In this document: positions 576-31,563 of the stretch, piece after piece
Layout: every line of letters starts with the position of its first letter
Numbering within the stretch: position 1 is the first letter of the stretch
DNA from: Maylandia zebra
Lineage: Eukaryota > Chordata > Actinopteri > Cichliformes > Cichlidae
Direction of reading: 5' to 3'
Assembly (NCBI RefSeq): GCF_041146795.1
Contig: NC_135168.1
Location: 15,614,131-15,678,130 of the forward strand
DNA: 64,000 nt
Notes under the pieces: model-generated
Seen by the model: the letters and a program-made list of their open reading frames with translations, nothing else
Databases searched by the model: none
What the model was told of the DNA's origin: nothing
Translations under genes and position numbers: made by a program

Positions 576-1135
576 ACAAGTAACTCTTACACCTGCATTG
601 TGGGTGTTGTGATGTCTAAGTCTGGTGAAACAACGTTTGATGTAAATGTAAAATTATATGTTTGATGTGATGCACTGCTTTTAGAAAACAAGGAATCACA
701 TTCAACTTGCTGAATTTGTCTGTACAAAACCTTTAGTACAATTTTTCTTCCACACAATTCAAAAATTCTTACAGAATTGTTTGTATTCGTGAAAGAACAA
801 ATGGTAAACTTTTTTAAAATAAACTTTCAACCAAATCATTTTCTTGAACAAGATGATTATAAATTGGCCAATCTCACCAGAAAGAAGCAGTTCAATTGCA
901 AATTCCCCAGTAACTTAAAAATGTTTCATAAGTAGTGGGGAATTTGCCATCTTCTCTATGGGACCATGGATGAATGTGCTAAAAGTCCAAGCAAAACTGC
1001 AATATCATCAGCACACTATCTAAAGCCTGTGAAAGAGCACAGTTTGCATATCAGTGATGAAATTCTATAACTTCCATGAGAAAGTATCAGCTTTGTTGTT
1101 TATAGGTGAGAGTTCTACTACTAAGATACACTGTT

Positions 1136-1136
<1 letters not shown>

Positions 1137-1166
<30 letters not shown>
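1137..1166. repeat. poly(A) tract, about 30 bases
   Basis: A homopolymer A run starts 8 bases inside the left end of the CMC transposon. The right end has only six A (as T on the plus strand) at the same place, so the run is probably a slippage expansion of the terminal repeat. Confidence 0.85.
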
Positions 1167-1167
<1 letters not shown>

Positions 1168-1172
1168 GTGCT

Positions 1173-1226
1173 GTTTTTACAGGAAAACCCTGGCAGCTGG
1201 GGTTACCAGGGACTTCCTGTAAAAAC
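1173..1226. repeat. subterminal stem-loop of the CMC transposon
   Basis: The 13-base arm 1173-1185 is the exact reverse complement of 1214-1226. A second, inner pair (1188-1193 with 1206-1211) extends the stem. The arms contain the TTTTTACAG word that recurs elsewhere in both subterminal zones, which makes this a plausible transposase or accessory-protein binding array. Confidence 0.65.
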
Positions 1227-2165
1227 GCTTTACAGATGCAACTTGTAAATTGATTTACAGTGAATGAATCTCAGATTAAAACTTAAATCTACAGGAAAAA
1301 GAAGTTAATTTCACACAGATGTAAAAGATACAGGAAAGTGTATTTATATATCACAAGTAATAAATGCTTTTTGTGGATCCATAAACTGCAAAATTAACAG
1401 GGAAATATCGTACAAAGAACTAATTTAAAATGGTAGAACTACAGTGAAACTGTGCATATTAAATGGAGCTGCTCTGTAAATTATACATAAAATCTATGCT
1501 GAATATTATATGTTTTAATGTAAAATTTTAACCATAACCCAGCAAATTTCTTACTGCTACGCCTACACCCAAACATGCAAAAATACATCTTGAGAAAACA
1601 CAAGAGAGGAAAATATCACTTTTGGGAAATTTATTTTGCAGCCACATTAGCAAAATGACAGCAAATGGATCCATTTTTCCAACTAACACAATATGCAAGG
1701 CACACAGCAACTACACAATTCAATCAAAATATAGGCTATAAAAGCTGTGGAACATTCCTGCAAAGTAAGAACCATGTTCATGAAACAAGCATTTGTTAGA
1801 CCCTCCACCAGAAAAAGTTAACTAACCTGTTAAGACTTTAAAACAAAAAACACATATTGTGTCAAAAATGATCATAATCACCGTGCAACGCAACACGCAC
1901 CCTGCTGTCACCACAACCATGGCCCTGGTCAGAAAACATCAGCAAAACCACGTGGTGAAACAAACCTACACATGTGGTCTAGAAACACTGCAGTAGCAGC
2001 ATGTTGTTTTTTTCTTTTCTTATGTAAATAAAGAACATTCCTACAAAGAAAGAACATCTTCATGAATTGGCTTCATGCATTCGACCAGTAAAAGGTTCCA
2101 GTACACATTGTGGAACAAAATTAACAAACTAAAACTAACAGTCCACAGAGAGTCAAGATTTAGGC

Positions 2166-4489
2166 TTAGCGCCACTCGTGGTCGGCGAGATCCTGAATCA
2201 GGGTGAGGACTCGAGGGTTCACACTGAGACGACGCTTTGAGTTTTTGTTCTCTACTTTGGTTCCTTTTTCTGGGTTTATGGAGAAGAAACACCTGTAGAA
2301 TAACAATCATATAAAAGTTTATTAAGCATTTTTATAATTGATCAGTTAAAATACACGTACAAAGTAAGTAAAAATTAAGTATATACATATATATACACAC
2401 ACAGTCATGGCCATGACCACGTTCAAGACAAAGTATAACCAAAATGCTGTGGGGAAGTGAACAATGCATGGTCAAAAGTATTGGCACCCTTCACGAGTGT
2501 CTTCTGCAGTGATATGTCACACTTTAGCATTGTTAAAATCCAAAGCAAAGGTTATAGGTAGTCAGACGTCAGTTGACGCTTGGTCTAGCCCTGAGTCTCG
2601 GCCAGGCTTGGACCCGGATTCAGACTGTTAATGTATTTAAAAAAAAACAAACAAAAAAAAAAACAACAACAACAAAAAACAGAAAAAAAACAACTGAAAC
2701 CGGCTCCAAAGCCGACCGAGACTCAGAGCCAGACCTGGACTCGAACCACATCAAAGCCAGACTCCAGATCCCAGAGTCTCAGTTATGAGAAATAACAAAG
2801 CCATATTTGTTCACCTCTGAAGAAACTCTAAAGTGGAAGCCAGCTCAGATGGATAATGGATGTTGAAATTGTAGTAGCTCCCGAACATGAGGCACAGTGC
2901 AGAAATGAAGGAGGATATGTTTGTGCTGACGAGGTTCCGATCAACACTCAGCATGTATCTTCTTGAGGAATAGCAGGACTGTCCTGTGAACAAATTATTT
3001 AACAGGTTATATCAATAAACACGGCAGTCACATGACATTCTATAAAAAGTGCACTTAAAAAAAAAAAAAAAAAAAAAAGAGAGCTATGAAACAGACTTAC
3101 CACACACGATAATAGTGGGTGTCAGAGGCACTTGCTCCAGTTGTACCTCATCTGCCAGACATGTATCTTCAACACAGAGAAGCATGGACTCCTCCTTCTC
3201 TTCAAAGTAGCTGAGCAGAAGCAGGACCATCTCTTTCACATCATCTGAGCAGCCACTCTGCGGTCCCCGCATCCTCTGAAGCCTTGCATAAGTCTGAAGG
3301 AACACCTTGCTTTTGCTGACAGCAACTGTGGTCAAGTAGTCCAGTAGCCTTTTCCCCTTCAAATCCAAATTACGTGTGAATGTCTCTTTGAGGTCAATCC
3401 CAGTAAGTTCCTTGAAGTGGACAGACATGCCAAGTTCATCAAACCAAAACGGCCACTCCTCCCTAAGGCATTTGATACTTTTCCCCTGATTGACATGCAG
3501 ACGTTGTGTGTAGTAAGTGGACTTCATTAGACTTTTTACCTCTTCTGGATTGGTGTCAGCTTGCTGGAACATCACCTTGAGTTTTTCCATCTTTTGCTGT
3601 TGGCTCTCTGGAGTTTCTTCAAGAGGCAGAAATTCTACATTCCATTTAATGCACCCGTATGTATCCTGCATGGCTGCTCTTTCTTCTAAAGGGATCTCGT
3701 CTGTGTGGTCTGAGTCAGTCTGATGTTTTCTTTTTCTTATTTTGGGTGTTGAAGTGCGCCTTACATTTTCAATTCTGTTCTGCAACTGTTTGACAAGTGA
3801 AAGGTAGCCTGCGCCAACAATCTCACCCTCTATTAAATCTTGCAGAGAATTGGGATATTTTGCCACCATTTTTCTTGCAACGTCAATTGAATGTTTTCTA
3901 CCTACATGAGGGCATTTTTCCATCATCTCAGTCACAACAATCCGGACCATTTGCCTCCTCAGTTTTGGGCGAGGCCTTTTCCCCCTCTCAAGAAAATGCA
4001 TCACTTCTGCAGGAAGTTTACTCCATGGAATTTCAAAGTTGTCATCCCATTGTGTGTCACATCCTGGGCTGCTGGAAGAGGTCGACGATAGACTTTGGGG
4101 TGAAAGTGAGAGCAATGACAGCGACTGGGTTGATGAGGCTTCCACAGATGATAGCGAGCTGTTCTCTGGAGTTTGGTCTTTAAATTACAAAACAAATACA
4201 ATTATGATTCACACTGTATGTCTGTTCATGACCATCTCTGCTTTTGAGTTTGAATAGTTGTTTGTTGTTTTTACTTACATTTCTGTTTCCAAGCAGAAAG
4301 AAGCTTTCTTGCTTGTACAGGTCTTAATGCTGTCATCAAATCTGCCTCCGTTACGAAGCGTAGATCATCACTTGTCTCAACTCCAATGGACTGCAAGTGC
4401 TCCTCCAGGATGTTTTTGTTCACAGCTTGAAGTTCTGGTAGGACTTCCGTGATGGCGACATCTAGGAAGGTTCGCTCTGAGTCACTCAT
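2166..4489 (-). CDS. SAM-domain protein (SAMD3-like), transposon-encoded, 4 exons
   Basis: Joined exons on the minus strand: 4489-4279, 4177-3101, 2983-2815, 2292-2166 (211+1077+169+127 = 1584 nt, 527 aa). Every junction is GT-AG and in phase. Residues 1 to about 70 form a SAM domain beginning MSDSERTF and including the LEEHLQSIGVET helix. Exon 2 starts with a Ser-rich linker, then a Pro/Arg/Lys-rich stretch (PWSKLPAEVMHFL...) and a long helical central part. The C terminus ends in SVNPRVLTLIQDLADHEWR. I recognise this as the type annotated in fish as sterile alpha motif domain-containing protein 3-like. SAM domains usually mediate protein-protein or nucleic-acid contacts. The start was chosen at the ATG just after a TTCTTCAG acceptor (about 4499), so a 5' untranslated exon probably lies upstream, perhaps shared with the transposase. 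The gene lies wholly inside the transposon; an accessory role like plant TNPA is inference. Confidence 0.72.
2402..2520. repeat. Tc1-TIR-like fragment inside intron 3 of the SAM gene
   Basis: Positions 2402-2415 (cagtcatggccatg) and 2469-2493 (tggtcaaaagtattggcacccttc) resemble the ends of fish Tc1 elements that read cagtcatggccaaaag...ttggcaccc. Only these end-like pieces remain. The fragment sits in the 2814-2293 intron, so it need not affect the protein. Confidence 0.4.
2581..2742. repeat. imperfect inverted repeat around an A-rich spacer
   Basis: About 25 bases at 2581-2606 (containing CTGAGTCTCGG) pair imperfectly with 2713-2742 (containing CCGAGACTCAG). Between them lies an A-rich run (2640-2698). 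It is in the third intron of the SAM-domain gene and could be a small MITE, but no target duplication was identified. Confidence 0.45.
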
Positions 4490-4634
4490 ACTTGCACTGA
4501 AGAAGAAATGCCACATCCAAACAAAATAGAAAATCACATACAGTTCATACACTTGATGGAGCAGGGTGTGGATTACGTGACACTTATATTAATGTTAAAC
4601 TATTTACAGTGAGAAGTGAGCTATTAGTTGGACA

Positions 4635-7277
4635 TTATTTTGCCACAATACTATGCTTTAGTGGAATGACTCTGTATTCTTGAAGAATGTATGATACCAA
4701 AGGATAGAAATCAGGCAGGTCATTAATGTTGATACACTGTAACCCAAGACTGTCCTTTGTCACAGAATACAGATGGTATTCTGAGAGGAAGATGCCTTTG
4801 TGGATATCCATTAGAACATACACAGATGTGTCATTTTGAATCAAGATGAGTAGAAGTTCACCAAACTCCATACACTCGTCATTTCTGTACACAAGAAACT
4901 GTCCCTTTTTATATGCAGTGCCCTTGTACTGAATGTCTGTGGTAACTGTGGTATTGCTTTCTGAAAAAGCTAACTCCCTGACCGCATGCTGAATAGTGTC
5001 ACTGTAGAGGTTGGGATAAAACGCACAGCTCTCCTTGACTTGCAGCAGTTCACGGCATTCTTGCCCTGCTAAAAGATAAGCCTGATACATCTGATGACGT
5101 GTTGACAAAGTTTGACAAATATTTTTGAAGCTTTTCAAGTGTCTGGCACATCTTTTGAAGTAACTGTGTTTACATTCAAACCTAAGCGTCCATAACCTCA
5201 TCAATGGACCAAATTTCAACAACAGTGCTGAATAATGGCGCAAATAGTGGTGCTTGGGTTTTAGTTTAATTCCAGGAAACAACATCTCTCTCATCTCCAA
5301 ATATTCTTGGATCAAAATGTCAGCGAATGCTATCTGGGACAAGGAAATGCTCTGAGCACAAATAAGATCCACAATGTCTTTCAACTGGAGAGCTAACTGC
5401 CATACTTCATCCTCATGATTTTGTACTTTGTCACCAATCAAAACTGGCAGCAATCTCAAAAGGTTCCAGTTTTGAACGGCTTGCCCTGATAATTTGGATC
5501 CGTCAGGTTTGACAGTACATGGCTTTGTAAGTGCTTCGGATCCTTTATATTTAAACTGTTTAATGCGTCTGTTTAAAAGGGAGTATGTGAACCATTTTTT
5601 ATTTTTTATAATGTTCTTCAGGTACAGTGCTAGATCATATGACACAACTCCTTCAAAGAGGTCATGACCTAGACAAGGTGGGAGACCAGGCTGGGATACG
5701 TGAAAAGACTGAAGGGTATTGAAGATGGAGTTTACCTTTATTCCTCTGACGTCTTGGATAGTTTCAGACTGGAGATCAGCAACAGCCGCGTCATATGTCT
5801 CTGGAGTGCGTGGAGGACCACAGGCATTCGGATCAGCATAAAACTCACTTCGTGTTACTTCACAGTACCTGCAAAAATATTGAGAGCAGCTGAAGTTTTC
5901 TGTAAACCCTCCTATGCAATGAGAACCCAAGTTGTCCCCAGCAATACAGTAAAGACCCCCTTTTACAGTTTCTCCATCTACATCTATTCCATCTGTCTCC
6001 AAAGATTTCAGATCTGCCAACAACTCTGAGAAAACTTTGGCTATTCCAAAACGCTTGAAGTCATTCTCAACACACAACAAGACTAAAAACATGTTATCTG
6101 TATTTGAACGCAAATGAATGGGTAAATTTGCTAATGACAGATAGACTGCAAGAAGTTTGTGCGTCTTTTTAGCAGAACCCAGGGGATTCACTACCTCAAA
6201 TGAATCTTGGTACAAAATCAGTTTGAGGCTTTCAGGGTTTTCATTAAAGAACTGGTGACATTTGAAAATTTTGCCATCATATAAATCCTTAAAAATTTCT
6301 ACATCAGGACCCCCAAACTGTTGTGACTGTGTATTCCTCCATAACTGTGACTCTAAAAAGCTCTTCAGGGTTTCTCCAACTGGTATGTAGTAAGCACATT
6401 TTTCTGTCATGTTTTCATCCATTCCCAATGGCACTTTCTTGGGTTCTGTGTATTTAAACATTTTTTTGAATGTTTGATTTCTGGTGTGTGTTGTTCCTAG
6501 TTGTCCCTGATGGCAAGCAGAGAACAAATCTGACTCTTTAATGCAGTCACAGATTTTAGTGACTGCTTCATCTGATAGGTTCATTTCATTTTTTAGTAAA
6601 CAACTTACCTTATTAATTGTGTAGGCTTGACCCAATTCGTGCACATTCTGCATTTCCTCAGCAATACTCTGTATAGTAGAGGCAGGAATTAGCAGCTGTC
6701 CTTGCAGTTTAAGGTAAAAGAGACACATGTTTCTGAGATAAGAATGACTATCCTTCTCTGGCATATCACTGGCTGAACTAGCAGATGCCATGGTTTCATG
6801 TGTGTTTTCTGAATATTCTGTACTGTCATTTGGGGGCTGAGGACGAGATTCCTTGTACATGTCATCAATACCATCTGGAGAACAAGCTTTATGCTTCCTA
6901 CACATGTGAGAAGTAAATGATGACTTTTTTGTAAACATATGCTTACAACCACTTACTGGACATGACACAGACCTGCCCTCTGCAATATGATCGTTTAAGT
7001 GAGACACTAGCTCTTTCACTGTTTGAGAATGGCGGGCACATAATGAAACCGCACATTTTAAATCTGCAACAAGAGCTTTAGGAGTAGCTTGAAGTGCAGG
7101 TGCATTGTGCACACGATAAAAATGCCCCTTGAAAGCAGAGTACGTGGTGAATGTTTGGCTGCAATTGGCGCCAACACATTTAAAAATACAACAAGGCTCA
7201 TTCTTATGCACTCTGCAATGTAGTACATAGCCTCTTAATGTGACCAATACCTTTTTACAAAAGACGCAGATGATCAT
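4635..7277 (-). CDS. CMC/tnp2-like transposase with N-terminal C2H2 zinc fingers, 880 aa
   Basis: A single uninterrupted frame of 880 residues. Residues 1-130 hold about four C2H2-type fingers: C4/C7/H20/H24, then 29-57, 74-97 and 106-129. A low-complexity linker follows (about 140-180). The transposase core shows YQDSFEVVNPLG (D358), IAGDNLGSH (D448), a CRYC CxxC motif at 469-472, LGHDLFEG (HD 538-539) and LRFECKHSYFK (E700). That order matches what I remember of the CMC DDE transposases (tnp2 plus the DUF4218-like C-terminal half), giving D358/D448/E700 as a candidate catalytic triad. It would bind the element ends and cut and paste them in the nucleus. A 5' untranslated exon ending at 7408 (donor CG|GTAAGT) probably splices to an acceptor a few tens of bases above the ATG. 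No frameshift or stop is seen, so it may be active or recently so. Confidence 0.75.
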   Translation of the reverse strand: MIICVFCKKVLVTLRGYVLHCRVHKNEPCCIFKCVGANCSQTFTTYSAFKGHFYRVHNAPALQATPKALVADLKCAVSLCARHSQTVKELVSHLNDHIAEGRSVSCPVSGCKHMFTKKSSFTSHMCRKHKACSPDGIDDMYKESRPQPPNDSTEYSENTHETMASASSASDMPEKDSHSYLRNMCLFYLKLQGQLLIPASTIQSIAEEMQNVHELGQAYTINKVSCLLKNEMNLSDEAVTKICDCIKESDLFSACHQGQLGTTHTRNQTFKKMFKYTEPKKVPLGMDENMTEKCAYYIPVGETLKSFLESQLWRNTQSQQFGGPDVEIFKDLYDGKIFKCHQFFNENPESLKLILYQDSFEVVNPLGSAKKTHKLLAVYLSLANLPIHLRSNTDNMFLVLLCVENDFKRFGIAKVFSELLADLKSLETDGIDVDGETVKGGLYCIAGDNLGSHCIGGFTENFSCSQYFCRYCEVTRSEFYADPNACGPPRTPETYDAAVADLQSETIQDVRGIKVNSIFNTLQSFHVSQPGLPPCLGHDLFEGVVSYDLALYLKNIIKNKKWFTYSLLNRRIKQFKYKGSEALTKPCTVKPDGSKLSGQAVQNWNLLRLLPVLIGDKVQNHEDEVWQLALQLKDIVDLICAQSISLSQIAFADILIQEYLEMREMLFPGIKLKPKHHYLRHYSALLLKFGPLMRLWTLRFECKHSYFKRCARHLKSFKNICQTLSTRHQMYQAYLLAGQECRELLQVKESCAFYPNLYSDTIQHAVRELAFSESNTTVTTDIQYKGTAYKKGQFLVYRNDECMEFGELLLILIQNDTSVYVLMDIHKGIFLSEYHLYSVTKDSLGLQCININDLPDFYPLVSYILQEYRVIPLKHSIVAK

Positions 7278-7563
7278 TTTTAGTATTTCAAAAGTTTGCC
7301 TGTGCTTTTCAGCTGAACTAGCATGCTAGCGCTAGGTTATGAGCATTGGTCTAAATATCAACTGGTGCTTTTATCTCGAAAAAACGTCGCCAAGATATTG
7401 AACTTACCGTGCAGACTTTCTGACGAACAAACACAGATCCTCAAAAAACACTTGAAATCGTATGTTTGTAATTTGTCCTAACAACGTAGTTGCTGAAAGT
7501 TCGACGTTTTCTTCTCTAGTGCTGGCTCGTTAGCTAAGTTCGTGAACTAGGCGCTCTTCTCCT

Positions 7564-7587
7564 CCCGCCCTCACGTCATTATCCAAT
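7564..7587 (-). promoter_or_regulatory. putative promoter of the transposon genes (CCAAT, CRE-like, GC box)
   Basis: Read on the minus strand, an inverted CCAAT box (ATTGG, 7587-7583) is followed by TGACGTGA (7578-7571, CRE-like) and GGGCGGG (7570-7564). The cluster lies about 290 bases upstream of the transposase ATG and about 160 upstream of a consensus splice donor at 7408/7407. The tight arrangement of NF-Y, CREB/ATF and Sp1-type sites is a common TATA-less vertebrate promoter layout. Its function is inferred. Confidence 0.5.
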
Positions 7588-8414
7588 CAGAGACGAGCTT
7601 CAGATGCACATTCAAAATTAGGCGCGCTCAGTGCAACGTGAGTGGCCTGAAGTAGCTTACAGCTCTGTGGAGATGAGGCACCATAGAGATCCTATGGGAG
7701 GCACTGTAAGTTTGTTTAGCCTGTAATAATGAGACATTGCTGACCTAACCCAAAAAAGTATTCTAGTCTAAGTATCACATTGCAATTAAAAGAAACATAA
7801 AGAATACAAGCATTATGACAGAAGCATTACTTAGTCGTTAAATAATAATTTCTTATTGGTTACCCTACAATAGGCTGCAAATAGCCCGAATGATTTAAGA
7901 AAAAAACATGATGTAAACAATTTTAATTGTATATTTTTATATAGCCTATAAATGGAGAGGCAACCTCTCAGGTTCACAATGACATCTTCTGTGAAAACAT
8001 TTTTATTAGTCCTATCCATGACTTTGCATCATTTCATGAATCATGTTAAAAGTAGGCCCAGTACATCCATGCAATTGTAAAGTGACTTATAGGTCATGTG
8101 TTTTTAAGAAAAACTGACTAAAACTGTGATTTTTACAGTATTTGCATGTCAAATTAACATGATTGTTTGGTTATGAGTATTACGGTGTTTCACTGTTTTT
8201 ATTCACAGTATTTGTAGTTTTAACCAATAAATTTGATTATAATCACACATTCATGTTGTAAATATAACAGGAACATTCTGTTTAAAGGTTTACAATAATT
8301 CACTGTGATCGAAACAGGAAAGTTGTGTTTTGGGGTTTACTATACATTTCTGTAGGGGTTTTACATGGTTTTTATGTCAATTTCACTGCCCTTTTTTACA
8401 GTGTAGTTCACCCC

Positions 8415-8664: not shown

Positions 8665-9475
8665 GGTAAAGTAAAGTAAAGTTTATTTATATAGCACCTT
8701 TCACAGACATATGTCACAAAGTGCTTTACAAGGTAAAAACATAATACAGTCATAAAATACACCATGAAAACCCTGGTCTAATTAAAAGCTTTTTGAAATA
8801 AAAATGTCTTTAGCTGCTTTTTGAAGGTCTCCAAACCCCGTAGAAATAGGGGAAGTGCATTCCACAATTTGGGTGCAACGGCTTGGAAAGATCGGTCCCC
8901 TCGGATTTTAAAACGACTGTGGGGGACCACTAAAAGGTTTTAGTTTGCTGACCTCAGGTTACGAGTGGAGGTATGTGTATGAATCAGATCAGCAATGTAG
9001 GGGGGGGAGGCGTCTCTGTAATGCTCTAAAAGTTAAAACTAGAATTTTAAAATGGAACCTGAATCTGATTGGTAGCCAGTGCAGCGACTTTAAAACAGGG
9101 GTCATATGAGCACCCTTGTTTGAGCGGGTCAGTAGCCTCGCTGCAGAGTTTTGAACAACCTGTAGGCGGGCTAGCCCTTTCATGTTTAGACAAGTAAACA
9201 GGCTGTTACAGTGGTCAAGTCTTGCAGAGATAAAAGCATGCATTATCATCTCGAGTTCACTTGTTGACACGATGGATCTAAGTTTAGAAATGTTCCTCAA
9301 GTGAAAAAAACAGGTTCTTACTGTCTGATTTAAATGTCCCTCCAAAGAAAAAGCTTCATCAAAAATGACACCCAAGTTTCTAAGGTTATGTTTCTGTGAG
9401 GAACCTAAGTCACCCAGTTTCTGTTTTGGCAGGTTTAGCTGTAAGCAGTTATTGTTCAACCATTGTTTAATGTTG
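8665..9475 (-). pseudogene. L2-type LINE, 5'-truncated reverse-transcriptase C-terminal fragment
   Basis: The minus-strand frame 9459-8989 reads as the region after the RT catalytic core of L2/CR1-clade LINEs: LGVIFDEAFSLEGH, ARLDHCNSLF, ARLQVVQNSAARLLT, LKSLHWLPIRFRFHFKIL. The frame shifts at an 8-base G run (9000-9007) and continues as YIADLIH, NLRSANLKPLVVP, GDRSFQAVAPKLWNALPL. The 3' end carries the usual tatatagcacctttcacagac sequence and a GTAAA-type tail (8665-8683). It is 5'-truncated near 9475, the typical product of incomplete target-primed reverse transcription. It lies between the SRE-like site and the elovl6 promoter. Confidence 0.8.
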
Positions 9476-9639
9476 GTTAAACAGACTGCTTACACAAGAC
9501 ACAATATAATCCTATAAACTGGGCTTCAATATTACCCACATGTTCTGTGTTCTTATTTATTGACAATGACCATAGAATAAAATATGAAGGCATCAAATTG
9601 AACTTTCAAGGGAGTAATATGACGGCTTTAGGACCCTAA

Positions 9640-24800: not shown

Positions 24801-27800
24801 AACCTCTAAATAACAACACAAACCTCACTGAAGTGGAACATCACTCCTTGGGCTACTTTTACTCAGCTAATTAATCCCAGAGCTGTTGGTCAAGCTCCAA
24901 GAATGCCTCATTCCTAGTTGCTGTGCACTGTCCTCTTGACAGCAAACACAATGTTTTTTTGTTTTTTTTAATGTTTCCAAGGTTGCTGCTGCTGATATTT
25001 CTTTTTTCCAGTATCACCCTGCTGTTACATACATATATCTACTTCTGGCTACCCTGCTGTAGGTCTGATGCCTGACTAACCTGGAACCTACTAACTTACT
25101 CTCATAAGGTTTATTTTCCTGAAGGTTTCCTGGGGGGTTATTTTCTTGGCTATGCTGCTCGAAGCAGTTACTCTGCTCTCTGTCCAATAGAGCAGATCGT
25201 TTTTCGACAATGCTGGTTTAGTGTTTTTCAGCCCTATTCAGCATCCAGTCTGTCAAGTCAGACTACCTGCACCTTGTAATTGTGCTGAGCACTGGCAAAT
25301 ACTTTTCTTTAGATTCAGTTGAGCCAGGTGGTGTTTCACTGACAAGTCAATTAACACAAATTTAGATCACAGGATGGGAGCAGCTGAAACTGAATCCCGG
25401 CAATAGCAATTAACTTGCAGCAAAGTATTAAATGGCAGTTGGAACTGGACTCTGATCATTAAATCATTGCTTCAGGCATTGCATGTGAAGTCACTTTATT
25501 ATGTAAAACGTGTCTTGTGTACATTGTGAAGCAGTGCTGGAAGAAGAACTTCTGTGCATACAAAAATTACATTGTTAGAAATGATTACTTTATGGTGGGA
25601 ATAAATTGCAAATAAATGCTGCTTTCATTTAAAATGTCAGTTTTTTCCCCTCATAGTATCTAAGGATGAAGCTTGAAAATGTTTGTTTCTTCTTTGATGG
25701 ATTACAGTAGAGTGCAAGTCTTAAGCAGTGAATGGAGCAATTTATTGAAATCCAATCGTACATGAAAATATAGTGTATATATTAAAAAAAGAAGCTTGAA
25801 AGTCAATATGTTGTGTAAACCTTTATTGAGGAATAAAAGGTGGAATAAAGCCAGAGCTCTCGTAGGCAAGTTTTTTGGAATTTCTTCAAATAGTGTCCAA
25901 GCTTCTTGATGGACATTCCAAAGCTCTTCTTTGGATGTTGGCTGCCTTTTCTTCTGCTCTCTGTCAAGATGGTTCTACATCTGAAGAATGTTGAGGCCCA
26001 GACTCTGGGAAAGCCAATCCGTGATTGATAGAAAAACATACAGTGGAATACAGTCAAGATATGCTTTCACTGGATTGCTGTTGCCAATCATATACAGTGG
26101 GGCAAAAAAGTATTTAGTCAGCCACCGATTGTGCAAGTTCCCCCACCTAAAATGATGACAGAGGTCAGTAATTTGCACCAGAGGTACACTTCAACTGTGA
26201 GAGACAGAATGTGAAAAAAAAATCCATGAATCCACATGGTAGGATTTGTAAAGAATTTATTGGTAAATCAGGGTGGAAAATAAGTATTTGGTCAATAACA
26301 AAAATACAACTCAATACTTTGTAACATAACCTTTGTTGGCAATAACAGAGGTCAAACGTTTACTATAGGTCTTTACCAGGTTTGCACACACAGTAGCTGG
26401 TATTTTGGCCCATTCCTCCATGCAGATCTTCTCGAGAGCAGTGATGTTTTGGGGCTGTCGCCGAGCAACACGGACTTTCAACTCCCGCCCCAGATTTTCT
26501 ATGGGGTTGAGGTCTGGAGACTGGCTAGGCCACTCCAGGACTTCCAAATGCTTCTTACGGAGCCACTCCTTTGTTGCCCGGGCGGTGTGTTTTGGATCAT
26601 TGTCATGTTGGAAGACCCAGCCTCGTTTCATCTTCAAAGTTCTCACTGATGGAAGGTGGTTTTGGCTCAAAATCTCACGATACATGGCCCCATTCATTCT
26701 GTCCTTAACACGGATCAGTCGTCCTGTCCCCTTGGCAGAAAAACAGCCCCATAGCATGATGTTTCCACCCCCATGCTTCACAGTAGGTATGGTGTTCTTG
26801 AGATGCAACTCAGTATTCTTCGTCCTCCAAACACGACGAGTTGAGTTTATACCAAAAAGTTCTACTTTGGTTTCATCTGACCACATGACATTCTCCCAAT
26901 CCTCTGCTGTATCATCCATGTGCTCTCTGGCAAACTTCAGACGGGCCTGGACATGCACTGGCTTCAGCAGCGGAACACGTCTGGCACTGCGGGATTTGAT
27001 TCCCTGCTGTTGTAGTGTGTTACTGATGGTGACCTTTGTTACTTTGGTCCCAGCTCTCTGCAGGTCATTCACCAGGTCCCCCCGTGTGGTTCTGGGATCT
27101 TTGCTCACCGTTCTCATGATCATTTTGACCCCACGGGATGAGATCTTGCGTGGAGCCCCAGATGGAGGGAGATTATCAGTGGTCTTGTATGTCTTCCATT
27201 TTCTGATGATTGCTCCCACAGTTGATTTTTTCACACCAAGCTGCTTGCCTATTGTAGATTCACTCTTCCCAGTCTGGTGCAGGTCTACAATACTTTTCCT
27301 GGTGTCCTTTGAAAGCTCTTTGGTCTTGGCCATGGCGGAGTTTGGAGTCTGACTGTTTGAGGCTGTGGACAGGTGTCTTTTATACAGATGATGAGTTCAA
27401 ACAGGTGCCATTCATACAGGTAACGAGTGGGGGACAGAAAAGCTTCTTACAGAAGACGTCACAGGTCTGTGAGAGCCAGAGATTTTCCTTGTTTGAGGTG
27501 ACCAAATACTTATTTTCCACCCTAATTTACGAATAAATTCTTTACAAATCCTACCATGTGAATTCATGGATGTTTTTTTCACATTCTGTCTCTCACAGTT
27601 GAAGTGTACCTCTGGTGCAAATTACTGACCTCTGTCATCATTTTAAGTGGGGGAACTTGCACAATCGGTGGCTGACTAAATACTTTTTTGCCCCACTGTA
27701 TATGGTGCATCAGAATCTAGCGTTGACCTCAGCCTCTTCTTCCTGTTTCCTTTTCTTAAGAGTTGCTTTTTGACAGCCATCCTTCCATTTCTGATGGGTT

Positions 27801-30800: not shown

Positions 30801-31563
30801 AGCTTTTGCAGTTACCGCAACTGTTTATTGTAGAGTACTTATCGGCCTTAGCCTTGTTATGGGTGATAAATGGTATAATAAAAACTGCTTTTGCTGCCAC
30901 TTGTATTTGTGTTTATCAGTTTATTGGGTCCTAAGTTGTCAAACATTTCAGTGCTTCTCTCTGTGTGCCTAAAGCTTTGTGTTTTTACACAGCTTTGCAT
31001 ATTTGAGAGTGATTTGTATCACAGCCAGTTACTTTTTGTTGGACAAATAATAACCATGTTCCTTTTTCTGCTGCTCCGTCCTGTCTTATCCACTCCTAAC
31101 TTCCACTCTCCTATTCGCAGGTGACACTCTGTTCATTGTCTTGAGGAAACAGAAGCTCATCTTTCTCCACTGGTACCACCACATTACTGTGCTGCTCTAC
31201 TCCTGGTACTCCTACAAGGACATGGTGGCTGGCGGCGGGTGGTTCATGACCATGAACTACTTGGTCCATGCTGTCATGTACTCTTACTACGCACTGCGTG
31301 CAGCTGGTTTCAAGCTGTCACGCAAGTTTGCCATGTTCATCACACTGACCCAAATCACACAGATGTTGATGGGCTGCGTAGTCAACTACTTGGTGTACTC
31401 GTGGATGCAGCAGGGCCAGGAGTGTCCATCCCACATGCAGAACATTGTTTGGTCCTCCCTCATGTACCTCAGCTACTTTGTGCTCTTTGTCCAGTTCTTC
31501 TTTGAAGCCTACATCGGCAAGTCCAAATCATCGGCTATGGCTGCCACAAAGAAAAGCGAGTAA
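9862..31563 (+). CDS. elovl6: Elongation of very long chain fatty acids protein 6, 4 coding exons
   Basis: Joined exons: 9862-9944, 28601-28732, 28965-29116, 31121-31563 (83+132+152+443 = 810 nt, 269 aa). All introns are GT-AG and phases match. The N terminus [20 protein letters not shown] and the body match vertebrate ELOVL6 closely. Elovl6 is the multi-pass ER condensing enzyme of the fatty-acid elongation cycle: it joins malonyl-CoA to C12-C16 saturated and monounsaturated acyl-CoA, mainly palmitate to stearate. The catalytic histidine box HWYHH sits in [19 protein letters not shown], followed by [17 protein letters not shown]. The last residues KKSE form a canonical dilysine ER-retrieval signal. 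Length agrees with the family (about 265-270). It converges with egf downstream, as in human. SREBP and ChREBP control is known for the gene; a possible SRE lies at 8415. The first intron (18.7 kb) is heavily loaded with transposons but shows no damage to splice sites. Confidence 0.96.
11878..11928. repeat. GA-rich simple repeat
   Basis: Interrupted (GA)n tract in elovl6 intron 1, mostly uninterrupted at 11878-11893 and again at 11907-11918. Confidence 0.85.
12380..12411. repeat. near-perfect palindrome, 15-bp arms, 2-base spacer
   Basis: Arm 12380-12394 (GCAAATATGAACTGA) is the exact reverse complement of 12397-12411. Only TT separates them. It lies in elovl6 intron 1 and no function can be assigned. 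Confidence 0.75.
16753..16776. repeat. (AC)n microsatellite
   Basis: A dinucleotide run of about 12 units in elovl6 intron 1. Confidence 0.9.
18057..18420. repeat. probable decayed interspersed repeat
   Basis: The stretch starting tttatttaggacagtgcatgttaatgaac and continuing with gctaatttccatctg resembles a repeat I have met many times in teleost introns, possibly a LINE 3' part. It has no coding frame and I cannot name the family. Confidence 0.35.
19700..20428 (-). pseudogene. Penelope-like retroelement fragment with GIY-YIG-type domain
   Basis: The minus-strand frame 20188-19979 reads [52 protein letters not shown]. This is the start of the GIY-YIG endonuclease domain as found in Neptune-type Penelope-like elements of fish and amphibians (canonical IVYxVxC...LYIGET). 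Upstream on the minus strand, 20428-20200 carries the preceding linker ([19 protein letters not shown]...TFVKAG). Downstream to about 19700 a degraded C terminus follows. Stops and frameshifts show it is dead. It is cut at 20429 by the outer hAT element, so the Penelope-like copy is older. Confidence 0.6.
20437..22208. mobile_element. hAT-type non-autonomous element (outer copy)
   Basis: Terminal inverted repeats begin TAGGGCTGGGCGATATGG at 20437 and, in reverse, TAGGGGTGGGCGATATAA at 22208. The 8-bp flanks are ATGTCCAG (20429-20436) and ATCTCCAG (22209-22216), one mismatch, as expected for a hAT target duplication. No transposase frame is present. The element is split by a second copy at 20728-21759. 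It inserted into the Penelope-like remnant. Confidence 0.78.
20728..21759. mobile_element. hAT-type non-autonomous element (inner, nested copy)
   Basis: The 1032-bp element starts TAGGGCTGGGCGATATGA and ends in the inverse of TAGGGCTGGGCGATATAT. It is flanked by a perfect 8-bp duplication ATAAAAAT (20720-20727 and 21760-21767). A segment at 21305-21400 is the inverted counterpart of 20563-20655 in the outer copy (shared words include cacaaccagaattcatacataagg), so the two elements are related and the inner one sits in the opposite orientation. The middle part is GC-richer than its surroundings. Confidence 0.85.
22313..22352. repeat. end of a common vertebrate MITE (cggcttatag...tacggtaa)
   Basis: The segment reads like the terminus of a widespread short DNA transposon whose ends contain (g)cggcttatagtccggaaaatacggtaa. 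A related inverted end may be at 20527-20550 (acgtattttccacactataagg). Because 20437-22208 is a separate hAT unit, I do not join the two. Confidence 0.4.
22550..23200 (-). pseudogene. decayed Tc1-like transposon (copy 1)
   Basis: The minus-strand fragments resemble Tc1 transposase with many stops, for example a GGDSVIIWG motif corresponding to GGGSVMVWG. Positions 22921-23110 align by eye with 27755-27925 (shared dacagcca, caccaag, tagatgga-caactgaa and ggatatgact-type words). It is therefore the same old Tc1 family as the copy interrupted by the intact element at 26095. Confidence 0.6.
23440..23708 (-). mobile_element. tRNA-derived SINE
   Basis: Read on the minus strand from 23708: GGGGTGGCCGTGGCTCAGGT carries a pol III A box (GTGGCTCAGGTGG), and about 45 bases on GGTTCGATCC is a B box. 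After a unique body with CTTGGGCAAGATACT, the 3' end (agcgctatataagaatcagtccatttgcca) looks like a LINE-mobilised tail of L2 type. The structure (tRNA-like head, body, LINE-like tail) defines a SINE transcribed from its internal promoter. The exact family name is not assigned. Confidence 0.75.
25800..26092 (-). pseudogene. decayed Tc1-like transposon (copy 2), C-terminal half
   Basis: The minus-strand translation near 25980-25830 (around [22 protein letters not shown] and related frames) corresponds to the Tc1 C-terminal region, with frameshifts. It is the part left of the intact Tc1 inserted at 26095. The matching N-terminal half lies at 27701-27960. Confidence 0.55.
26095..27698 (-). mobile_element. 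full-length Tc1 element with 200-bp inverted repeats
   Basis: The 1604-bp element is flanked by TA on both sides (26093-26094, 27699-27700). The terminal inverted repeats, 26095-26294 and 27499-27698, begin CAGTGGGGCAAAAAAGTATT and differ at only about 5 of 200 positions by my count. Long repeats of this kind are the IR/DR arrangement, with transposase sites at both ends of each repeat. The transposase frame inside is open, so insertion is fairly recent. It landed inside an older, decayed Tc1. Confidence 0.93.
26311..27333 (-). CDS. Tc1 transposase, 340 aa
   Basis: An uninterrupted frame of usual Tc1 length. The N terminus has the paired helix-turn-helix DNA-binding region ([20 protein letters not shown] ... 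[21 protein letters not shown]). The GAPRKIS stretch is a GRPR-type AT-hook-like linker. The DDE core shows [12 protein letters not shown] (first D), [11 protein letters not shown] (second D) and [10 protein letters not shown] (E, 34 residues after the second D). It catalyses cut-and-paste transposition into TA. One oddity: the conserved NLWRELK is NLGRELK here, a single T-to-G change from TGG to GGG, which may weaken the enzyme. No stop or frameshift is present. Antisense long frames over the same bases are shadows. Confidence 0.92.
27701..27960 (-). pseudogene. decayed Tc1-like transposon (copy 2), N-terminal half
   Basis: On the minus strand it reads [20 protein letters not shown], then [12 protein letters not shown], then [13 protein letters not shown]. 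This corresponds to the GRPRK linker and second helix-turn-helix of Tc1 transposase. With 25800-26092 it forms one old element split by the young Tc1. Confidence 0.65.
28010..28600 (+). other. elovl6 intron 1, distal end
   Basis: Nothing recognisable apart from the acceptor tract tctctttttgttgcttgcag just before exon 2 (28601). Confidence 0.6.
29117..31120 (+). other. elovl6 intron 3
   Basis: AT-rich intron between exons 3 and 4, with donor GGTAAGTCC at 29116/29117 and acceptor ctattcgcag at 31120. No other gene, RNA or clear repeat was recognised. Confidence 0.65.

Follow-up and report, generated by a model that had tools for sequence, protein, structure and literature searches.

A two-gene CACTA-like transposon with a SAM-type accessory gene in the genome of the cichlid Maylandia zebra

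Here we analysed a 64,000-nucleotide stretch of the Maylandia zebra genome (assembly GCF_041146795.1, contig NC_135168.1, positions 15,614,131 to 15,678,130 of the forward strand), referred to as the window. Positions 1129-8403 of the window are an intact-looking DNA transposon, 7275 bp long in this copy, that carries a transposase gene and a SAM-type gene. The SAM-type gene is the second gene of the mobile element, not an ordinary host gene, and we call it the accessory gene. The element is a mobile unit with defined ends and a 2-bp target duplication; the pairing of its two genes is conserved, and the accessory protein shares a homologous core with related lineages. On balance, we favour the reading that this is a two-gene cut-and-paste animal CACTA/EnSpm-like (CMCT) transposon, in which a zinc-finger transposase would work together with a self-associating accessory protein that bridges the ends.

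Results

The element ends in CACTGT and ACAGTG with TA on both sides (Table 1), in agreement with the CACTG ends and TA flanks given in a preliminary description of the window. The left end of the window copy is atypical (CACTGTTC, followed by a run of 30 A), while other copies read CACTGTAA. The subterminal words noticed earlier stand out: within the terminal 2 x 400 bp, TTTACAG occurs seven times on both strands together, whereas 300 dinucleotide shuffles averaged 0.34 and never exceeded 3. ACAGGAA occurs six times in the same regions (shuffle mean 0.12).

We then consider further copies. Copy, pairing and empty-site searches were all performed in one genome, that of the host (962 Mb, 63 contigs). 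The element DNA gave at least 84 matches, the best 40 of 107 candidates being scored, and all copy counts are lower bounds. Three copies are full-length without large insertions: the window copy, L002 and L003 (the latter two 99-100% identical). Only in the window copy are both frames open, as had been stated for its two undamaged minus-strand genes. The transposase is damaged by one premature stop in L002 and by a 2-bp frameshift in L003; the SAM-type frame stays open in each of these copies.

Matching 2-bp flanks were found at all ten two-ended copies examined (window, L002, L003, L009-L014 and L018), with TA in eight cases, TG in L002 and CA in L012. L025, which has two ends but unlike orientation and unlike flanks, and single-end loci were left out of this count. 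Since two copies are not flanked by TA, the 2-bp flanks are a target duplication and not end sequence. Comparison of several copies, as previously proposed, defined the ends and the 2-bp duplication.

In addition, the joined flanks of seven copies (window, L002, L009, L010, L011, L013 and L014) were used as queries for empty sites, and the best 40 of 765 candidates were scored. L011 is inserted in a dispersed repeat, and its joined flanks with one TA kept align gap-free across the junction to three unoccupied copies of that repeat. An assignment of TA to the ends was ruled out by this empty site together with the TG and CA copies. The other six queries matched their own flanks only among these candidates. 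This includes the window copy, where an empty site joining 1128 to 8404 had been expected; the site demonstrated is that of L011.

Six copies, L009-L014, are deletion derivatives with shared breakpoints. Each retains the two ends within its own pair of matching 2-bp flanks, and they have therefore probably moved in trans. A separate observation concerns L018 (C12:9937000-9946900), where about 0.66 kb of extra DNA separates the matches at query positions 3231 and 3235, which is an insertion within the element.

The transposase is encoded in a single exon. In all five aligned transposases D358, D448, C469-x2-C472, H677-x3-H681 and E701 are invariant, and the DDE residues among them presumably are catalytic. 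When the transposase was compared by sequence with solved structures, C2H2 zinc fingers and two weak, unrelated-looking rows were obtained; fold prediction from the single sequence was unusable (predicted local distance difference test, pLDDT, 33). Since it has CACTG ends and a 2-bp duplication, the element departs from classical CACTA/EnSpm, for which a 3-bp target duplication and a Transposase_21 match above cut-off would be required. By motif, ends and duplication, and not by phylogeny, we would file it in the wider CMCT group.

The accessory gene is predicted to be spliced from four exons, whose GT..AG introns join in frame to give a protein of 527 amino acids. A predicted model of exon 1, of moderate confidence, has five helices and lies near SAM domains. 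The lone match of the accessory protein to a solved structure (E 1.7) was taken as chance, and SAM-profile matches to Protein A repeats were discarded because a 20-residue stretch that occurs repeatedly produced them artificially. The preliminary description gives 'SAMD3-like' as the name of this type of gene in fish annotation; a link between genes so annotated and the accessory gene is putative. No relatives outside the host genome were confirmed in viral contigs, prokaryote genome contigs or plasmids.

To describe the pairing of both genes, the best 52 of 566 candidates from the transposase search were scored. They comprise 27 rows that are 41-100% identical to the query and merge to 22 loci, and 25 distant rows with 31-33% identity. 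Among the 22 SAM-side loci, 19 are followed downstream by a SAM gene of the same orientation: 17 with a match within 12 kb, and two more (C11:27555692 and C2:25033677). Three are without a SAM partner (C17:3906783, C8:914970 and C2:26495527, the last with a SAM-gene fragment at 13.9 kb). Even in L029, with identities of 41% for the transposase and 34% for the accessory core, gene order and orientation are kept. Looking in reverse from the SAM side, six loci were fetched for lack of a scored transposase; L034, L038 and L039 turned out to carry transposase pieces and L035 a 103-amino-acid remnant, and L036 and L037 are taken up in the Discussion. L037 (C3:13716300-13723400) has open frames in both the SAM exon and the accessory core and is a candidate solo or host-tamed gene; a frame upstream (281-643) may be part of a fusion or of a different gene.

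All but one of the 25 distant transposases, C1:38794931, have a partner as well. In these 24 cases a second gene begins 83-937 bp downstream; its core and C-terminus are homologous to those of the SAM-type protein, and its N-terminus is PB1-like. SAM-type and PB1-type proteins are homologous in their cores (hhalign probability 86.5, E 4.5e-6) and C-termini (probability 91.9, E 7e-7), and CACTGT..ACAGTG ends with 2-bp flanks were also found at the PB1-side loci L031 and L032. The PB1-side lineage is large in the host genome, with at least 117 accessory matches (the best 117 of 256 candidates), 98 of which are without an internal stop. Many near-identical pairs suggest that this lineage was active recently.

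Comparison of L030 with L033 gave proportions of silent (pS) and replacement (pN) differences of 0.739 and 0.222 for the transposase and of 0.691 and 0.249 for the accessory exon. In the remaining pairs silent differences are at or near saturation (0.76 to 0.87), with replacement differences of 0.29 to 0.47. Between L030 and L033 silent changes far exceed replacement changes in both genes, and both proteins are therefore under purifying selection in this pair of relatives, as expected if the element needs both.

Table 1. Features of the element in window coordinates
Feature	Position	Strand	Basis or remark
Whole transposon	1129..8403		Ends, copies, 2-bp duplications, empty site of another copy
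Left target duplication TA	1127..1128		Same-type duplication in 10/10 two-ended copies
Right target duplication TA	8404..8405		Flank match
Left end CACTGT	1129..1134	+	30-A run next, 1137-1166
Right end ACAGTG	8398..8403	-	CACTGTAAAAAA reading inwards
Left subterminal region with many TTTACAG and ACAGGAA words	1129..1528		Counted jointly with right region vs 300 shuffles
Right subterminal region, also with TTTACAG and ACAGGAA	8004..8403		Shuffle comparison
Transposase gene, single exon, 880 amino acids + stop	4635..7277	-	Open frame; invariant residues in five transposases
N-terminal C2H2 zinc-finger region, about residues 1-130 of transposase	6888..7277	-	Profile vs solved structures
Accessory exon 1, SAM-like domain	4279..4489	-	SAM_TNK below cut-off; five-helix model near SAM domains
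Accessory exon 2, conserved core	3101..4177	-	
Accessory exon 3	2815..2983	-	
Accessory exon 4 with stop	2166..2292	-	
Segment absent from the six deletion derivatives L009-L014 with common breakpoints	3219..6703		Matches stop at 3218, resume at 6704

Outside the element, three minus- or plus-strand frames of the window were assigned by eye: a 166-amino-acid frame resembling a LINE reverse-transcriptase fragment (8989-9489, minus), a 361-amino-acid open frame with the look of a Tc1/mariner-type transposase (26311-27396, minus), and a 169-amino-acid frame that looks like the final exon of an ELOVL-type fatty-acid elongase (31054-31563, plus), probably a resident host gene.

Discussion

How might the two proteins of this element work together? 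Cutting and inserting are the tasks of transposases of this family. The zinc-finger transposase would recognise and cut the CACTGT ends and insert the element with a 2-bp duplication. The accessory protein would consist of the conserved core and C-terminus joined to an N-terminal self-association module, SAM-like here and PB1-like in related lineages. Most probably the protein would act as an oligomer that coats or bridges the repeated TTTACAG and ACAGGAA words and so presents both ends to the transposase side by side, the role attributed to TNPA in maize Spm. The accessory protein may bind DNA, polymerise and mediate synapsis, and it may take part in opening methylated DNA.

Several observations weigh against this reading. 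DNA binding, oligomerisation and requirement of the accessory protein are putative. The SAM_TNK profile matched the accessory protein of the window below threshold (E=0.059) and three of five accessory members with a best E of 0.022, below the 25-bit cut-off. The whole spliced protein matched no Pfam family even at E 10, profiles of the SAM-like N-terminus matched no SAM chain among solved structures, and Foldseek matched the SAM-like model to nothing at an E-value of 0.001 or below, with helix-hairpin-helix domains ranking close behind. Likewise, the PB1 profile matched one of three accessory proteins scanned (E 0.031, below cut-off), the best accessory locus in a whole-genome PB1 scan, C17:14173389, reached 22.5 bits versus a cut-off of 23.6, and the profile of the PB1-like N-terminus matched no PB1 chain among solved structures. 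On the transposase of the window, Pfam tnp2/Transposase_21 (PF02992) scored E=0.034 and 13.8 bits versus a cut-off of 28.6; among the five transposases, three matched Transposase_21 and two Plavaka, all below cut-off. In L036 the 6.3 kb upstream of the core contain no transposase, and in L037 the same is true of the 4.8 kb upstream of its SAM exon. Finally, the observations are confined to one genome.

The main rival explanation, which we consider rather unlikely, sees in the accessory protein a regulator of the element or an antagonist of its silencing, acting on expression, methylation, nuclear import or target choice, with no role in joining the ends. Pairing and selection fit any needed accessory function, and TNPA itself is described as also acting on promoter methylation (PMC1636069). 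However, the repeated words sit at the ends, and both N-terminal modules suggest self-association, which argues only indirectly against this rival.

It seems improbable that the SAM-type gene is a captured host passenger without a role in transposition. The solo SAM-type loci L036 and L037 would suit a passenger, as would the name SAMD3-like in fish annotation, but the pairing persists in L029 at 34-42% identity and, with a homologous core, in 24 of 25 distant transposases, and both genes are constrained. Because the pairing lasts through L029 and these distant transposases, the partnership is old. The earlier proposal that the SAM gene is part of the element was thus upheld by deep pairing, selection and ends as far as it makes this gene the element's second one; the TNPA-like function that it proposes is putative, and its strict form, in which both genes always lie together, fails at the two solo loci. 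A chance neighbourhood of unrelated genes between random CACTG words, of which the window has 242 on both strands, hardly deserves consideration, being refuted by dispersed copies with the same ends and their own 2-bp duplications and by the empty site.

Returning to the end-bridging accessory protein, a broader scenario is conceivable, although we rate it as short of probable. An old animal CACTA-like lineage may depend on an accessory protein that forms oligomers and in which the N-terminal module was exchanged between SAM and PB1, two unrelated folds that form head-to-tail polymers, with core and C-terminus kept. Vertebrate SAMD3 and SAMD3-like genes would then be copies of it, some of them host-tamed, with L037 as a candidate. 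If this exchange is true, polymer formation on subterminal repeats would be the conserved function. Naming the accessory protein would reassign a host-looking gene class in fish genomes to their mobile part; it would offer a testable model for the joining of CACTA-type ends and a possible origin of a vertebrate gene family.

Among known systems, maize En/Spm encodes a transposase of the tnp2 type together with one further protein, and it has repeated subterminal words (PMC1636069). With two proteins and repeated subterminal words the present element is like En/Spm with its TNPD and TNPA, TNPA being likened by description. In contrast to En/Spm it has CACTG instead of CACTA ends, a 2-bp instead of the usual 3-bp duplication (3 bp are given for EnSpm in PMC12730594), two separate frames, and a SAM-like or PB1-like N-terminus on its second protein.

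Among animals, SmTRC1 and the TRC elements are CACTA-related with a Transposase_21 region; SmTRC1 also makes proteins without this region, and a Danio sequence is listed among the relatives (PMC1636069). Unlike our element, SmTRC1 has CCC ends and obtains its second proteins by alternative splicing, and in that paper no relatives of these proteins were detectable; we set it apart by description. The CMCT clade, which includes Plavaka and ESTA (Kojima 2025), is described with D, D, E, C2C and H3-4H motifs, mostly CA..TG ends and duplications of 2-5 bp (PMC12730594). Our element is like it in motif pattern, ends and duplication size, and in its weak Plavaka and tnp2 profile matches. The CMCT elements described there carry TET/JBP genes in fungi, whereas here a SAM/PB1-type accessory gene is found in a fish.

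Fish EnSpm-type elements described so far include the non-autonomous EnSpm-N6_DR of zebrafish and drbx1 of Betta (EnSpm-9_DR family), which is reported with 10-bp direct repeats; the passages on these elements describe no autonomous partner and no proteins of one. Such elements affect host regulation: zebrafish EnSpm-N6 contributes p53 sites, and in Betta there is a sex-linked insertion at dmrt1 (reported among PMC3485254, PMC9004415 and PMC8742447). The derivatives L009-L014 likewise belong to a fish EnSpm-type element and also appear non-autonomous. Searches of open papers gave no description of a CACTA-like element with a SAM or PB1 accessory protein; Repbase and most subscription papers lay outside this scope, and the family may be catalogued there. 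Two-protein CACTA elements, then, are already known, and what appears to be new is the SAM-like or PB1-like front of the accessory protein.

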